Shown here: piece by piece, positions 791 through 26,727 of the stretch
How positions within the stretch are numbered: position 1 is the first letter of the stretch
Layout: every line of letters begins with the position of its first letter
Source of the DNA: a virus
Direction: 5' to 3' (one strand)
Virus record (IMG/VR): IMGVR_UViG_3300009551_000110
Coordinates: 1 to 26,865 of that record
DNA: 26,865 nucleotides
Position numbers and translations under genes: made by a program
Notes under the pieces: model-generated
The model's input: only the letters and a program-made list of their open reading frames with translations
What the model was told of the DNA's origin: nothing
The model's database searches: none

Positions 791-1157
791 CTTTTCTCGG
801 CTCTCTCCGTGCGTCTCGATACATCCACCAGCGGCCCTCTGCCCATCGCACACGTCCGTTGTAAATCCAAAAACTATCGTCGCCATAAGTGACCACAGAA
901 CCGTGATGCAGTCTGGTTTCAACCCGATCCCATTCTTCGTACATGCTACCCGGCGGCGAGGCCTTCCGCTTCCCATTGCAATCCCAGAAGTGATGCCACG
1001 GTCTAACAACGTAAGGCCGCAGATAGAAGATCACGGTGTTGGCGTAGCAGCAATATGGCTGTGCTTTATCAGGGCACGGAGCTTTAGTTAGAAGCGGTTC
1101 CCTAACTTCGATTAAATGCTCGAACTCAGTCGGCAGGATGAGAATGTCGTTATTCAT
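777..1157 (-). CDS. Hypothetical phage protein, Trp/Cys-rich
   Basis: 126 residues from an ATG at 1157. It is rich in aromatic residues (PWHHFWDCNGK around residues 53-63, RWWMYRD near residue 110) with a charged C-terminus. There is no signal peptide or membrane segment. The C-terminal half reads like a small beta-rich module (SVVTYGDDSFWIYNGRVRW). It lies between a small membrane peptide gene, with which it overlaps by 8 nt, and the acidic protein gene, all leftward, so it is probably co-transcribed. Not recognised. Confidence 0.55.
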   Translation of the reverse strand: MNNDILILPTEFEHLIEVREPLLTKAPCPDKAQPYCCYANTVIFYLRPYVVRPWHHFWDCNGKRKASPPGSMYEEWDRVETRLHHGSVVTYGDDSFWIYNGRVRWAEGRWWMYRDARREPRKDELL

Positions 1158-1329
1158 TGGTTAGACGCGGTTTCCGAGCAGCTTCTTTACGCGACCGCAC
1201 AGACTGAGCAAGATTGACCACCTTAGGCTTTGTTTGCTCAATGGGAACTTGCCGACAGTTACAAGTAGTTGTTCCATCTGCGTACATGAACAGAAAACAC
1301 ATAACAGTAATGGTAAGAAAGTCAATCAT
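1150..1329 (-). CDS. Small single-pass membrane peptide with ADGTTxCxC motif
   Basis: 59 residues starting at the ATG at 1329, preceded by a strong AAGGAG SD. Residues 1-16 form one hydrophobic segment, followed immediately by ADGTTTCNC and then a basic tail with RSRKEAARK. The same hydrophobic-ADGTTxCxC arrangement occurs in the opposite-strand gene at 1924-2115, so the two are probably diverged paralogues. Two closely spaced cysteines just outside the membrane could form a disulfide or be lipidated, although a normal lipobox is not evident. Function unknown; lysis-related or envelope-associated roles are guesses. Confidence 0.65.
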   Translation of the reverse strand: MIDFLTITVMCFLFMYADGTTTCNCRQVPIEQTKPKVVNLAQSVRSRKEAARKPRLTNE

Positions 1330-1391: not shown

Positions 1392-1781
1392 TCAAAAGAT
1401 AACGAAGACCGGGCATCCCCACGCCGCCATACAGCCGTTATAGATCTGGTTGCTTCTATCCATACAACTAGACCAATGTTGATTCCCTTCAATCAGTAAG
1501 CAAGACTTCAGGTAAGCGGCTTCTTGCGCCTGACAGTCCTTGTCAGCCGTTACATAGTCTGGACACGTTGCGCATTCTCCGGTTGGGGCGACTATCTCAA
1601 GCGTTGACCCAATAGGCGTGAAGCTAACCTGTTGTTGCGCTGCGCTGTTTCGTGATTTGTTGAGGCCAGCGACCGTCTGTTTTCCCTGTTGGCGCGCGGG
1701 AATGGCCGCCACGGCCAGCAAAGCTAACAGGCCCAGCGATAATAAAATTACACGTAGGTTCCGGGTTGATATAAACTTCAT
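1392..1781 (-). CDS. Exported cysteine-rich protein with C-x10-C framework
   Basis: 129 residues. The ATG at 1781 has an AAGGAAA SD about 9 nt upstream. The N-terminus is a typical signal peptide: K2/R7/R10, a hydrophobic core at residues 11-27, then AIPA. The mature part has seven cysteines (70, 73, 83, 94, 106, 117, 123), spaced C83-x10-C94-x11-C106-x10-C117-x5-C123. This suggests a disulfide-linked helical hairpin in the periplasm or outside the cell. The protein at 26470-26727 has nearly the same framework. It sits between the two ADGTTxCxC peptide genes. Family unknown. Confidence 0.7.
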   Translation of the reverse strand: MKFISTRNLRVILLSLGLLALLAVAAIPARQQGKQTVAGLNKSRNSAAQQQVSFTPIGSTLEIVAPTGECATCPDYVTADKDCQAQEAAYLKSCLLIEGNQHWSSCMDRSNQIYNGCMAAWGCPVFVIF

Positions 1782-1923: not shown

Positions 1924-2115
1924 ATGTTTGGTAAACCCGTAATCATTCTCTCAGGAATACTCACTGTACTCTGCTACTTGATCATGTTCGCGGATGGTAC
2001 GACCATCTGCTATTGCAGCACTGAACCGCCAGTTATACCGCCCAGTGCGGTCATCATCGAAGTGCAGCCGGGACCATCTCCAACTCCAATCCCTCCAGTA
2101 GATGATCCGCAATAG
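1924..2115 (+). CDS. Small membrane peptide with ADGTTxCxC motif and Pro-rich tail
   Basis: 63 residues; the ATG has an AGGAAA SD. Residues 6-21 are hydrophobic, followed by FADGTTICYC and a proline-rich acidic tail (PSPTPIPPVDDPQ). It is a clear relative of the peptide at 1150-1329 in the opposite orientation, but the tails differ (basic there, proline-rich here). A short membrane/Cys segment plus a Pro-rich tail recalls Rz1-type outer-membrane spanins, but no standard lipobox precedes the cysteines, so that comparison is weak. It ends 17 nt from the convergent phosphoesterase gene. Confidence 0.6.
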   Translation: MFGKPVIILSGILTVLCYLIMFADGTTICYCSTEPPVIPPSAVIIEVQPGPSPTPIPPVDDPQ

Positions 2116-6574: not shown

Positions 6575-6661
6575 GCTTCCCGAGGGCAGAGCGAAAGCAG
6601 CACATAGGGGGCAAGCTACCAAGTAGCGGACCCAGATTCGCCGCGCTGCCCTTTGGGAGGC
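6575..6661 (+). ncRNA. Long structured leader hairpin upstream of the rightward operon
   Basis: An almost continuous 18-bp stem: 6575-6581 with 6655-6661 (one G-U), 6582-6589 with 6646-6653 (one G-U), an A/G mismatch, and 6591-6593 with 6642-6644. A single T (6654) bulges. The apical part contains another perfect hairpin, GCTAC-CAA-GTAGC (6615-6627). It lies 43 nt before the first rightward start codon, so it could act as a cis-regulatory leader or a separate small RNA. Plus strand is assumed from context. Confidence 0.5.
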
Positions 6662-6703
6662 TGAAAAGTTCTAGGCTTGAATGAATGGGAGGGATTGGAA
6701 AGG

Positions 6704-7000
6704 ATGAAGAAACCAACCGTGAAACAGCTTGAGGGGCGAATTAAAGATCTTGAGGCCGCTAATTCACGCCTTGCCAGTGACCGCGCACGGATGGCGTTGA
6801 CCATGCGCGAAGCCGTGCATAATGGCAATGAGTGGCGAGAGAAGTTTTGGTTGGTTCTCAAGCTTGTGGATGCTTACGTGCAGAGAGTCCCTGATTTGTC
6901 CAAAGGTGATCCGGTTGCACAGGCCAAAATGATCGCCAGTATCGATCCCGAAAACAAAAAGTGGAGCATCTTTTGGGACTCGCCAACAGACAACGGGTAA
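6704..7000 (+). CDS. Coiled-coil early protein
   Basis: 98 residues from the ATG at 6704, with GGAGGG about 12 nt upstream and AAAGG directly adjacent; a TTG at 6677 is a less likely start. The N-terminal third is a coiled coil (KQLEGRIKDLEAANSRLASDR); the remainder is helical, ending in an acidic/aromatic tail (KKWSIFWDS). It is the first gene of the rightward operon, a position often used for regulators, but no DNA-binding motif is evident. Not recognised. Confidence 0.6.
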   Translation: MKKPTVKQLEGRIKDLEAANSRLASDRARMALTMREAVHNGNEWREKFWLVLKLVDAYVQRVPDLSKGDPVAQAKMIASIDPENKKWSIFWDSPTDNG

Positions 7001-7034
7001 CAGTGGCTTACTGACAGTGAAGGGGGTTGAAACG

Positions 7035-7139
7035 ATGGATCGCAACGCAACAATTCGACTGACAGCAAAAGATAAACAGGCCGCGAAGCGTGCGACGCTG
7101 GGAACGCATGGCACGATTCAGCGAGACGGTACTCTTTGA
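7035..7139 (+). CDS. 34-aa protein resembling the front half of an RHH domain
   Basis: ATG at 7035 with AAGGGGG about 9 nt upstream. It begins MDRNATIRLTAKDKQAAKRA, i.e. the beta-strand and first helix typical of ribbon-helix-helix proteins, but stops before a second helix. It may be a truncated regulator or a dimerising decoy; function unknown. Confidence 0.4.
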   Translation: MDRNATIRLTAKDKQAAKRATLGTHGTIQRDGTL

Positions 7140-15466: not shown

Positions 15467-15874
15467 ATGAAAGAATGCGGCGACAAGCTATGCAGACGTT
15501 TGGGAAAGAGGCTCCGAGCGAGCGCGTTTCCGGTCAACAACAGGCGTGTCGATAAACTTGGTCCTTACTGTCGAGAGTGCTCAGTCAGACGTGTTCACGA
15601 ATATCGAGCAAGAAAGAAAATTACAAGGCTAGCGCAGAAAGAAGCCCGGTTGAGACTACAAGTAGAGCTGCCGCGCAAGCCAAACATCACCGCTACTGAG
15701 AGAGTCAAGCAAGCAATTGAGAGAGGCGCAACAACAATCGAATTAATTAAACAAGAGACGAAATTTAATTACGACCTCTTAGGTGATTTGCTGGTAGAGA
15801 TGGTTTGGGAATCAAAGACGGTAAAGATTGAAAGAAGACCTGAGGGCAAGAGAGAATTTCACATCGCTGCCTGA
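15467..15874 (+). CDS. Zinc-binding protein with C-terminal winged-helix-like domain
   Basis: 135 residues, ATG at 15467 shortly after the previous gene. The N-terminus has C4-x4-C9 ... C35-x2-C38 with a basic helix (VRRVHEYRARKK), as in small phage zinc proteins. The C-terminal 65 residues (TATERVKQAIERGATTIELI...LVEMVWESKTVKIERR) look like a winged helix. Probably DNA-binding; specific role unknown. Confidence 0.6.
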   Translation: MKECGDKLCRRLGKRLRASAFPVNNRRVDKLGPYCRECSVRRVHEYRARKKITRLAQKEARLRLQVELPRKPNITATERVKQAIERGATTIELIKQETKFNYDLLGDLLVEMVWESKTVKIERRPEGKREFHIAA

Positions 15875-15896
15875 TAGAGTTTTTCTGAGGGAGAGA

Positions 15897-16826
15897 ATGG
15901 CGACAATAGGTCTTTATGATGTTGATAGCGCGATCCCTAATCTTGCCTTGATGAGGTTGTCGGCATTTCACAAAGAGCGTGGGGATACGGTCGAATTTTT
16001 CATCCCCCTGATGGACGCTACTAGGTTTGATAAGGTTTATGCCTCAGCCGTTTTTAAGGACCAACCGGACGATGATCTTTCCGACCACTCATATCTCAAT
16101 CCTGAGCAGATGGAAATAGGCGGGAGTGGATGGGATCTTAATAAGAATTTACCGCCGCTAGTTGAATGCCTCGCGCCGGATTACTCGCTCTACGGCTACA
16201 GGCACAATATAGGCTTCGCTATGCGGGGCTGTCGCTTTCGCTGCTCATTCTGCGACGTTCCAAAGAAAGAAGGAAGACCAAAGGCGAGCAACACAATCGA
16301 AGAGATCTGGACCCAGCGGACCTCTAACTTCATCGTACTACTTGATAACGATTTTTTCGGCAATCCTGAATGGCGCGAGCGCATCGCAGAGATCCGAGAA
16401 CTGAACCTCAAGGTCTGTTTTAGCCAAGGGCTCAATATCCGCATCATCACAGATGAACAGTGTAAGGCGCTTGCCTCCGTAAGGTTTTGGAACTTACACA
16501 AGACGCGACGGCAAGTTTATTTCGCGTGGGATCGCTTTAGGGATGAGAAACTGATCGATGCGGGGATAGAGCGTGTTCGCGCGGCGGGTATCAAAGCGTG
16601 GCAGATGGCATTCTTTATTCTGATCGGGTACGACACGTCGCCAGAGCAGGATTATTACCGCGTGATGAAGATAAGCAAGCTTGGTTGCGATCCGTTTGCA
16701 ATGCCGTACAGCAAGAATGATCCATATCAAAAAGCGTTTGCGCGATGGGTGAATCATCGGGCAATTTTTAAGACAGTTGAATGGAAAGACTATAGAAGCG
16801 GCATCAAAAGGGGAGAGATCATCTGA
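15897..16826 (+). CDS. Phage radical SAM protein
   Basis: 309 residues from the ATG at 15897, preceded by GAGGGAG. The 4Fe-4S motif is C112-RFR-C116-SF-C119, followed by a TIM-barrel-like region with FIVLLDNDFFGNPEW and HKTRRQVYFAWDR. The first ~60 residues (IGLYDVDSAIPNLALMRLS) resemble a Rossmann-like, cobalamin-binding-type lead domain without the His of true B12 sites. Related proteins occur in many phages with unknown substrates. Activity (radical methylation or nucleotide modification) is inference. It sits beside two methyltransferase genes. Confidence 0.82.
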   Translation: MATIGLYDVDSAIPNLALMRLSAFHKERGDTVEFFIPLMDATRFDKVYASAVFKDQPDDDLSDHSYLNPEQMEIGGSGWDLNKNLPPLVECLAPDYSLYGYRHNIGFAMRGCRFRCSFCDVPKKEGRPKASNTIEEIWTQRTSNFIVLLDNDFFGNPEWRERIAEIRELNLKVCFSQGLNIRIITDEQCKALASVRFWNLHKTRRQVYFAWDRFRDEKLIDAGIERVRAAGIKAWQMAFFILIGYDTSPEQDYYRVMKISKLGCDPFAMPYSKNDPYQKAFARWVNHRAIFKTVEWKDYRSGIKRGEII

Positions 16827-24678: not shown

Positions 24679-25185
24679 ATGAATCGCAGAACACTATTAA
24701 AAACAGGCAGCGTAGGAGCAGTTGGCTTTCTAACGCTTGGCGCAAAGGGTTGTGGTAAGAACCTCTCGACCTATGTGAATGTGGTTATTGGCACGCTACA
24801 AGAGTTAAGCCCTCTTTTGCCCGGTCAGGCCCAGTTTATCTCCAAGGCAGTCGGTATAGCTAAAACATTTGACGATGCCTATCGGGCCGGGAAGTTCATG
24901 GATGCGACTGCGTTGTTTGAGAATCTCGCTGGAGTAATTAGCCAGATTGCAGACTCAGCTGGACTATCCAGCCCTTCAGTGAAAGTTGCGATTGCGGTCG
25001 TTGGTATTGCAATGAGAGGGATTGCAGTGTTGCTAAAAGACCAGACATCAGATCCGACTATCGCAGCGATTGTGAGTGAAAGCGCGAGTAAGAATCCGGT
25101 CGTGAGGCGCCAGAAGTCGTTGGTTGAAAAACTCGCAGACGAGAAAGAGATCAATGCTCTGTTTGCGGAGGCGGTACCGCGATGA
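24679..25185 (+). CDS. Exported protein with twin-arginine-like signal
   Basis: 168 residues, ATG with a GAGGAC SD. The N-terminus MNRRTLLKTGSVGAVGFLTL resembles a Tat signal (RR at 3-4), with C25 near the end of the hydrophobic part, but the lipobox (AKGC) is poor. The mature part is Ala/Ile-rich and helical (VKVAIAVVGIAMRGIAVLL) with a basic end. It would act in the envelope. Its role in the phage is unknown. Confidence 0.6.
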   Translation: MNRRTLLKTGSVGAVGFLTLGAKGCGKNLSTYVNVVIGTLQELSPLLPGQAQFISKAVGIAKTFDDAYRAGKFMDATALFENLAGVISQIADSAGLSSPSVKVAIAVVGIAMRGIAVLLKDQTSDPTIAAIVSESASKNPVVRRQKSLVEKLADEKEINALFAEAVPR

Positions 25186-25580
25186 TAGCACTGCTTCTCT
25201 TTCTAATCTTCTCAGTTCCACAGGAACCAAAGATCGTCATTTGCACGGTAGTAGCACCACGCGAGGCAATTACTTGTGATGGCCGAAGACCTTTGGATGT
25301 AACTGTGCTCTCTGCGGAACAGTTAGACGAGTGGGAGTTAGTCGCTCCTATGCAGGGGGAATCTCCGAACTCTGACGCGCCCTTATCAAAGCATTCGCTT
25401 AAAAGAGGCGACAAGGTTAAGCTGTTAGTCGAGCCGGACGGTATGACACCCATTGCGAACTGCAAGGTAAGAGTGTGGCGCAAGCTAAAGGATTACACCT
25501 CAAGTCATCCCGGCGATCACGTACCGTTTACGCTGCGAACTGAGCCCGATGATTGTCAGCCTTCGTATGGGAAGAATTGA
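25182..25580 (+). CDS. Small secreted protein
   Basis: 132 residues, ATGA-coupled. A short hydrophobic signal (MIALLLFLIFSVP) precedes a beta-rich domain with four cysteines (VICTVVAP, AITCDGRRP, ANCKVRVWRK, DDCQPS), probably two disulfides. The centre contains LKRGDKVKLLVEPDG, an Ig/SH3-like turn. Exported. Not recognised. Confidence 0.55.
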   Translation: MIALLLFLIFSVPQEPKIVICTVVAPREAITCDGRRPLDVTVLSAEQLDEWELVAPMQGESPNSDAPLSKHSLKRGDKVKLLVEPDGMTPIANCKVRVWRKLKDYTSSHPGDHVPFTLRTEPDDCQPSYGKN

Positions 25581-25652
25581 TTTTGAGGCGTCTCGGAGGC
25601 CAGCAACAGGCCGCAGACTGAAGGGCAATTTGACAGGAGCGACATAGAAGCT

Positions 25653-25682
25653 ATGGCAACTAAAAAAGGTGGAAAGAAGTAG
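25653..25682 (+). other. Nine-residue frame MATKKGGKK ahead of the Ig-like gene
   Basis: ATG at 25653 with an AGGAG about 13 nt upstream, stopping at TAG after nine residues. The next codons in the +1 frame read straight into the Ig-like protein. Either a leader peptide or evidence of one extra A in the A6 run (25662-25667). Confidence 0.3.
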
Positions 25683-25707
25683 TAACAAGGCACGAGACGC
25701 TTCAAAC

Positions 25708-26379
25708 ATGAGACAAGTCCACAACGTAGAGCACCAAGGCACGCTGATAGAATTCCTTAACAAGTGCCTCAAAGCTTACGAGGAGCGCACCAAAGCACTG
25801 AAAGGTACGCCGCCAATAGGCGAGACATCGATCGCGCAGAAGTTAGAGGCAATTATTGACATGCTGAAACCTCTCGGCTCTGTACCGGGTGACCTCGGAT
25901 TCGCAAGAGAGGAAATCAGTTTAATTCACGGGTTGCTTGCCAACCCTCCACAACCAGAACTAGAACCCTTCACCCCGTTTCGCATAGAGCCGGATTCAGG
26001 GTTCGTTGAAATAGGAGACATTGAATCCATGCAGATAACAGACACACAGCAGTTCAAGATTACTTTTCCGGCTCCAGTTGATAAGAAAGGGTTTCCCGCC
26101 AAGGTGCAGGATGGCTCAGTTTCTATAACGGTAGGCAACGATACCGCGACGGTAGAACCTAACCCTGATGATCCTTCGAACGTGTTCAGCGCGTTAGTTA
26201 AAGGCAACCGCCCCGGCGCTGACGATGGCTCAGAGGTCACGGCGGTGTCTATCAGTGCTGATGCTGACCTTGGCGAGGGCGTCAAGACCATTAGCAAGGC
26301 AGTTGAGCTCATGGTGACAAGCGGTGAAGCCACAGGATTTGGTGAACCCACTGTAAGCACTCCTGAGGAGCAGGCGTAA
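25708..26379 (+). CDS. Ig-like domain protein (start uncertain)
   Basis: 223 residues from the ATG at 25708; a GTG at 25669 gives 236, and a one-base change would extend it to the ATG at 25653. The first ~75 residues are helical (FLNKCLKAYEERTKAL); the rest is an Ig-like beta-sandwich (FRIEPDSGFVEIGDIESMQI ... VSISADADLGEG ... VELMVTSG), the kind of domain often decorating virions or tails. The acidic Thr/Glu-rich end may be flexible. It may be a structural or head-decoration protein, by inference. Confidence 0.6.
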   Translation: MRQVHNVEHQGTLIEFLNKCLKAYEERTKALKGTPPIGETSIAQKLEAIIDMLKPLGSVPGDLGFAREEISLIHGLLANPPQPELEPFTPFRIEPDSGFVEIGDIESMQITDTQQFKITFPAPVDKKGFPAKVQDGSVSITVGNDTATVEPNPDDPSNVFSALVKGNRPGADDGSEVTAVSISADADLGEGVKTISKAVELMVTSGEATGFGEPTVSTPEEQA

Positions 26380-26469: not shown

Positions 26470-26727
26470 ATGAAAAGACTAATTACCTTCGCAGTATCCG
26501 CGTTGATAGTCTTAAGCGTCGTGATCGGCACGCCAAAGAATGCGCGATGCTTCGATAGATTCTGTATGACTTGTGAGCAGCAATGTATACAGGATTACGC
26601 CCAGTTGGTTGTAGACTGCTCCGCAGACGGCACACCTGTTTCCGTCTGTGAGACGCGCAATAAGGATTTCATGCGCACCTGCGGAGTGGTTATGTGCCCG
26701 GTCTGCTCGTGGTATGAGAACTATTAA
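26470..26727 (+). CDS. Exported cysteine-rich protein with C-x10-C framework (paralogue of 1392 gene)
   Basis: 85 residues; AAGGAA lies about 11 nt before the ATG. A signal peptide (KRLITFAVSALIVLSVV) is followed by nine cysteines: C27, C32, C35, C39-x10-C50-x9-C60-x10-C71-x4-C76, C79. The C-x10-C-x9-C-x10-C-x4-C run mirrors that of the protein at 1392-1781 on the opposite strand. It is likely a disulfide-rich helical hairpin outside the cytoplasm. Function unknown. Confidence 0.65.
   Translation: MKRLITFAVSALIVLSVVIGTPKNARCFDRFCMTCEQQCIQDYAQLVVDCSADGTPVSVCETRNKDFMRTCGVVMCPVCSWYENY

Follow-up and report, generated by a model that had tools for sequence, protein, structure and literature searches.

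Twin CX9C (CHCH) proteins are imported into mitochondria and oxidized there by MIA40/ERV1; COX17, COA6 and MIA40 use Cys sites on such a stapled scaffold for redox or metal functions. The plant alpha-hairpinins, in turn, are short, cationic, secreted hairpins built on two C-x3-C motifs. Within the twin-CX9C proteins, some carry CX9C-CX10C plus an extra Cys motif upstream (PMC7909247). Among phage proteins, the T4 antiholin RI has a signal peptide that is cleaved, and it acts in the periplasm (PMC8385771).

Two small genes of a soil phage, termed A and B in the following, encode presumably exported proteins in which a CX10C motif occurs twice. The initial annotation had proposed that they represent one family of disulfide-rich helical hairpins, used twice by the phage. 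The analysis reported here points in the same direction: it is fairly probable that A and B are paralogues and that both form an antiparallel two-helix hairpin with a ladder of disulfides.

The parent phage genome

The window, i.e. the entire stretch of 26,865 bases that was analysed, is record IMGVR_UViG_3300009551_000110 of IMG/VR and represents a fragment of the phage, not a whole genome. Since it encodes Erf, a RecE-like exonuclease, an O-like replication protein, methyltransferases and RusA, it is assigned to a tailed phage. The window is collinear with the 65,410-base record IMGVR_UViG_3300005366_000001 (G001), the aligned stretches being ~70-99% identical. The 120 bases at the start of G001 are repeated directly at its end and contig G005 spans the end-to-start junction, so that a circular map of ~65.3 kb is obtained. 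About 33.7 kb of this map are absent from the window; the absent part holds the terminase, portal, major capsid and tail genes.

The host is probably a diderm of the Acidobacteriota, as judged by sequence comparison. This assignment rests on one terminase match, the sole relative among cultured phages being the distant one of Tunturi_4, a phage of the acidobacterium Tunturiibacter, and on one domain shared with Acidobacteriota proteins (see below); the argument for a periplasmic location of A and B depends on it. The large subunit of the terminase (L014:17001-18395, plus strand) matches PHROGs weakly at best (E 0.0012); its relatives occupy 59 loci in IMG/VR, indicative of a sizeable uncultured phage clade. 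These 59 loci were gathered, and 35 of their records were searched with the A and B profiles.

Several further genes may be mentioned: a radical SAM protein in the replication region of the window (15828-16826, plus strand; phrog_9298, E 3e-67), a transposase of the DDE type that contains a SWIM zinc finger and lies within a phage genome (L016:3980-5320, plus strand), next to a gene whose product is HTH plus IrrE-like, and a protein of 400 residues in which a sigma-70 region 4 domain is recognized (L016:8652-9854, plus strand), possibly a phage sigma factor.

Two exported proteins with a twin CX10C framework

Gene A (1392-1781, minus strand) encodes a protein of 129 residues with cysteines at positions 70, 73, 83, 94, 106, 117 and 123, which corresponds to the framework C-x2-C-x9-C-x10-C-x11-C-x10-C-x5-C; the putative hairpin domain comprises residues 67-129 (1395-1583, minus strand). 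Gene B (26470-26727, plus strand) encodes 85 residues with cysteines at positions 27, 32, 35, 39, 50, 60, 71, 76 and 79 and the framework C-x2-C-x3-C-x10-C-x9-C-x10-C-x4-C-x2-C, its putative hairpin domain spanning residues 31-85 (26560-26724, plus strand). The five-Cys spacings with which the pair had first been described are exact; to these have to be added a CxxC upstream of the framework (70/73 in A, 32/35 in B) and, in B, a second CxxC following it (76/79), both of which had been omitted. Inspection also agrees with the signal peptides that had been proposed: both N-termini comprise a basic start, a hydrophobic stretch and a small-residue cleavage region, which suggests that A and B are exported. 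Both ORFs have a good ribosome-binding site. The two genes had been placed at the ends of the window, 25 kb apart and on opposite strands, which is correct for this fragment but not for the layout of the genome: in G001, the distance is ~35 kb in one direction of the circular map and 30 kb in the other, again with the genes on opposite strands.

Both are real genes under purifying selection. The G001 homologue of A is 82% identical and keeps seven of seven cysteines; residues 83-129 are tightly constrained (dN 0.018, dS 0.214), residues 1-66 more loosely (dN 0.138, dS 0.293). The homologue of B is 99% identical over the aligned positions (dN 0.005, dS 0.304) and lacks four residues, C27 among them. 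When pairs of random chains are drawn with the number of cysteines held fixed, 0.34% of trials yield a common five-Cys framework of this kind and 0.003% yield twin CX10C in both chains, figures that are post hoc and thus indicative only. A scan of G001 for exported twin-CX10C frames returned, besides A and B, a single frame of 52 residues, which lies on the other strand; this frame has no proper signal peptide and no ladder, looks spurious and was rejected as a third copy. A and B are therefore the only credible exported twin-CX10C proteins of the circular 65.3-kb phage, in keeping with the view that the family is used twice.

Homologues in other phages

Further copies are found in related phages, both as a tandem pair and fused to other modules. 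The 69,380-base record IMGVR_UViG_3300025913_000032 (G014) contains two adjacent exported genes on one strand, separated by 30 bases. Of these, the first (L207:1041-1325) is of B type, with the framework C-x2-C-x3-C-x10-C-x9-C-x10-C-x4-C followed by a further Cys after five residues (two in B), and is matched by the B profile with E 2.6e-6. The second (L207:1356-1613) is of A type, C-x2-C-x9-C-x10-C-x9-C-x10-C-x5-C, and is matched by both the A profile (5.7e-5) and the B profile (0.0012). The framework cysteines of this tandem pair are in register with those of A and B.

In phage G006, an exported protein of 143 residues (L228:5640-6071, minus strand) starts with an unrelated Cys module, after which comes C-x2-C-x10-C-x11-C-x10-C-x4-C. 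The additional module, C-x2/3-C-x6-C-x3-C-x5-C-x3-C-x5-CC-x3-C-x4-C, is likewise exported and differs from twin CX10C; it stands alone in phage G029 at 41109-41369 (L213:1109-1369, minus strand). G029 also encodes a 410-residue frame (L214:4200-5429, minus strand) composed of a signal-like segment, C-x3-C-x6-C-x10-C-x9-C-x10-C-x5-C-x2-C and a C-terminal domain; the signal-like N-terminus was recognized by inspection of the frame, whose start codon is uncertain. Near-identical copies of this fusion protein occur in further viral contigs. Its C-terminal domain has DRNGNGVIDDGSELFG-type motifs, common to proteins of Acidobacteriota and Pseudomonadota, and its best matches in genome contigs are mostly from Acidobacteriota; the Cys domain was absent from the N-terminal parts of the inspected loci, some of which are incomplete. 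A 72-residue exported protein of phage G013 (L235:9652-9870, minus strand) ends in the CNY-G-CNLPT tail of the G014 B-type protein, with a much shorter middle part, and is possibly a trimmed relative.

A hydrophobic, signal-like N-terminal stretch is seen in A and B as well as in the two proteins of G014 and the one of G006. The proposed members have in common C-x10-C-x(9-11)-C-x10-C-x(4-5)-C, preceded at a short distance by one or two cysteines, and both C-x10-C motifs occur in six of six distinct domains. All framework cysteines are retained down to 34% identity; among the cysteines of B and its homologue, only the extra C27 is not conserved. The distribution among related phages is patchy.

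Searches beyond these phages yielded little. Viral contigs scanned with profiles A3 and A4 added no member to those already known, and genome contigs contained no close relatives of A. Profile A5, run on 162 genomes from a single acidobacterial class and on 396 from the phylum, gave three borderline matches and no convincing exported gene, a weak negative since no cellular positive control exists. A seven-Cys DNA pattern of the B framework, finally, occurred in at least 120 stretches of viral contigs; the open ones among the matches listed are low-complexity Cys-rich frames and were discarded. No match to the family was obtained in Pfam, NCBIfam, PHROGs or the PDB sequences. Against cultured phages, A and B gave nothing better than E ~7, and the G014 B-type, G029 and G006 homologues gave nothing. 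The phrase 'twin CX10C' did not occur in the papers searched. The proteins thus constitute a small, previously unlisted family, the structural principle itself being known.

Predicted disulfide ladder and fold

When the cysteines are paired outward from the turn, the sum of the two residue numbers (i+j) is nearly constant in all six distinct domains. For the inner two rungs it is exactly equal in six of six domains; the offset is -4 to +2 for the third rung and, in domains that have one, -2 to +4 for the fourth. B comes closest to an ideal ladder: its four predicted rungs (50-60, 39-71, 35-76 and 32-79) all agree within one residue, a regularity matched in 0.23% of trials when eight cysteines are placed at random in a 60-residue chain. 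Cysteines eleven residues apart lie on one face of a helix, and the pattern therefore fits an antiparallel hairpin with cross-helix disulfides. The constancy of i+j would accordingly predict a disulfide ladder: C-x10-C / C-x10-C would form two invariant inner rungs, and the upstream CxxC, together with the one or two cysteines directly behind the second helix, would form one or two outer ones. For A, the predicted rungs are 94-106, 83-117 and 73-123. One Cys of the A type (C70) has no partner in this scheme and is kept in three of three known sequences.

Structure prediction, based on two-sequence alignments, supports the hairpin to different degrees. AlphaFold2 modelled A as a helical hairpin with helices 76-98 and 100-120 (pLDDT 86-90). 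For B, it gave a helix-turn-helix (25-52 / 57-73) of low confidence (pLDDT ~70), which suggests a hairpin rather weakly. The helical hairpin that had been postulated for both chains is hence supported by the model of A and tentatively by that of B, the disulfides being predicted from the Cys pattern; different folds were not seen. In VIA-align comparisons, the model of A superimposes on two disulfide-linked hairpins, toxin B-IV (Z 5.1, 3.7 A, 55 aligned residues) and acrorhagin I (Z 5.0, 2.6 A, 49 aligned). Plain hairpins such as Rop tie with them, so that the result indicates a common arrangement only. The model of B, compared with five chains, had no useful match (6nkn_H, a cytochrome oxidase subunit: Z 2.5, 5.3 A, 48 aligned), and Foldseek searches of the PDB and of viral models returned nothing at E 0.001 or better.

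Genomic setting and possible functions

The likeliest reading of A and B is that of periplasmic binding scaffolds. Both would be made in the infected cell and exported by Sec to the oxidizing periplasm of a diderm host, where oxidation would convert them into protease-resistant scaffolds that may bind an envelope partner via their helix faces. Through the odd Cys conserved in A, the protein might dimerize via a disulfide or bond to its target. The domains are acidic, which argues against a membrane-active cationic peptide. Since A and B occupy different genomic settings, a common function is not implied, and the specific roles that these settings suggest by analogy, lysis tuning for one and exclusion for the other, are each proposed tentatively and are individually rather unlikely.

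B lies downstream of three genes on the same strand (24679-26379): 24679-25185, with a twin-arginine/lipoprotein-like product, 25182-25580, with an exported-looking product, and 25669-26379. In G001, the row extends beyond B and reaches a spanin-like gene (G001 6655-7098) and a gene for a beta-helix spike. B may thus tune lysis or envelope access. More specifically, the B type could comprise antiholin-like lysis regulators that work from the periplasm, in the manner of T4 RI on the holin T; antiholins of the RI type delay lysis by binding to the periplasmic domain of the holin. Small size, export and predicted helices would suit this role, as would the company of lipoprotein-like and spanin-like genes, and in G014 a gene for a coiled-coil protein of membrane type faces the A/B-type pair in convergent orientation; T4 RI provides the periplasmic precedent (PMC8385771). 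No holin or endolysin was found beside B, however, the spanin-like gene is a weak Rz-like match (phrog_2466, E 5e-4), A is distant from the row, and there is no sequence link to RI, all of which leaves an antiholin a doubtful candidate.

A belongs to an opposite-strand block that comes after the tail genes and in which its neighbours are likewise small and exported. Directly downstream, and at the same position in G001, is the gene for a small exported peptide (MIDFLTITVMCFLFMYADGTTTCNC...; 1150-1326, minus strand). A paralogous peptide is encoded at 1924-2115 (plus strand); the two share ..ADGTT-x-C-x-C and flank A on opposite strands, and only the one at 1150-1326 is present in G001. Between the stop codon of A and the next gene is the inverted repeat GGAAGTGG-ACCCAGC-CCACTTCC (1356-1378), which could be a terminator or a processing hairpin; no inverted DNA repeat flanking A was found. 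An opposite-strand block of this kind is typical of morons, and A might have a moron-like action, e.g. against superinfection. The corresponding alternative is that the hairpins are superinfection-exclusion or envelope-masking morons, which bind a host receptor or entry channel and thereby bar related phages. The patchy distribution in related phages would be in line with it, as would a compact conserved scaffold behind a looser N-terminal part. Against it, a promoter search of the A block gave nothing above chance level, and of genes that would point to lysogeny an HTH repressor-like one is present but no integrase was found; exclusion is thus as tentative a proposal as lysis control. In G006, the twin-CX10C gene is located between spike and terminase.

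Common descent or convergence

The binding-scaffold reading leaves the relationship of A and B to be considered. Eleven-residue Cys spacing suits helices as such, and unrelated proteins could each have arrived at a Cys-stapled hairpin. The window pair taken by itself would allow this: BLASTP found no similarity between A and B, hhalign of the two-row, window-only profiles gave P = 0.15, and the loop and outer-rung spacings differ. Addition of one homologue each lowered the hhalign value to P = 2.7e-4; the relationship becomes detectable because the G014 intermediates are added, the window pair being insufficient. Comparison with Cys-fixed shuffles gives a graded picture. An HMM built from A-type sequences only scores window B above 1994 of 2000 shuffles (6 do better) and the G029 domain above all 2000. 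The cross-score on the G014 B-type protein is modest (equalled by 51 of 2000), and the B profile does not separate the G029 domain from shuffles (230 of 2000 reach its score); that several cross-scores are matched by a few percent of shuffles favours convergence. The adjacency of both types in G014, where the A-type protein is matched by both profiles, speaks for common descent. Taken together, sequence comparison makes A and B likely paralogues of one small, phage-borne exported family, as the initial annotation had assumed, and independent origin appears unlikely, marginally more so than either of the specific roles above.

Less probable still is a thiol-active or metal-binding periplasmic protein, in which the CxxC and the odd Cys of A form a redox or metal site on the stapled scaffold. 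A and B, like the two proteins of G014, do have a CxxC ahead of the framework, and the known A-type sequences all keep the odd Cys. The outer cysteines of B and G029 fit as ordinary rungs, however, G029 has C-x3-C instead of CxxC, and the residues between the cysteines vary (AT, AD, MT, RQ). A stricter version, a counterpart of MIA40 or COA6 with the N-terminal CxxC and the odd Cys of the A type as redox or mixed-disulfide site, is very improbable; if true, the phage would rewire the disulfide chemistry of the host periplasm or link covalently to an envelope protein. A chance pattern in spurious ORFs, to which short frames and a pattern picked after the fact might lend themselves, is refuted by dN/dS and by the homologues with their retained framework cysteines, and 1.09 Mb of related phage DNA contain seven twin-CX10C frames behind a hydrophobic segment, compared to one in reversed DNA and one in five codon shuffles together (0.2 per genome set).

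Comparison with known disulfide-stapled hairpins

As small phage proteins with a signal peptide and a presumed periplasmic site, A and B resemble T4 RI, from which they differ in their cysteines and in the lack of any sequence link; no PHROG was matched. Cerebratulus B-IV, acrorhagin I and the alpha-hairpinins are, like the predicted phage domains, secreted helical hairpins with disulfides. In contrast to these toxins and defence peptides, the phage domains are acidic (net charge -1 to -7) rather than cationic, no sequence similarity to them was found among the PDB sequences, and the Z scores of ~5 of A with B-IV and acrorhagin I are of the size that unrelated hairpins, e.g. Rop, also give. 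Plant alpha-hairpinins in particular are ruled out by the C-x10-C spacing and the negative net charge.

The closest parallel is with the mitochondrial twin CX9C (CHCH) proteins, such as COX17, COX6B1/COX12, COA6 and MIA40, which also consist of two antiparallel helices with Cys pairs about ten residues apart and are stapled in an oxidizing compartment, the setting proposed here for the phage hairpins. Membership in this group is supported neither by spacing nor by profile, the CHCH, COX6B and COX17 profiles of Pfam giving no match up to E = 1. The phage proteins have CX10C in both helices, up to four predicted rungs and a bacterial-type signal peptide, and the likeness is probably one of convergence. 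The predicted disulfide ladder of these uncultured soil phages is a regular design that lends itself to testing, and the family provides candidate periplasm-acting factors in a host phylum whose phages have barely been studied. A fold principle best known from mitochondria would thus recur in phage proteins that are predicted to be sent to the bacterial envelope.
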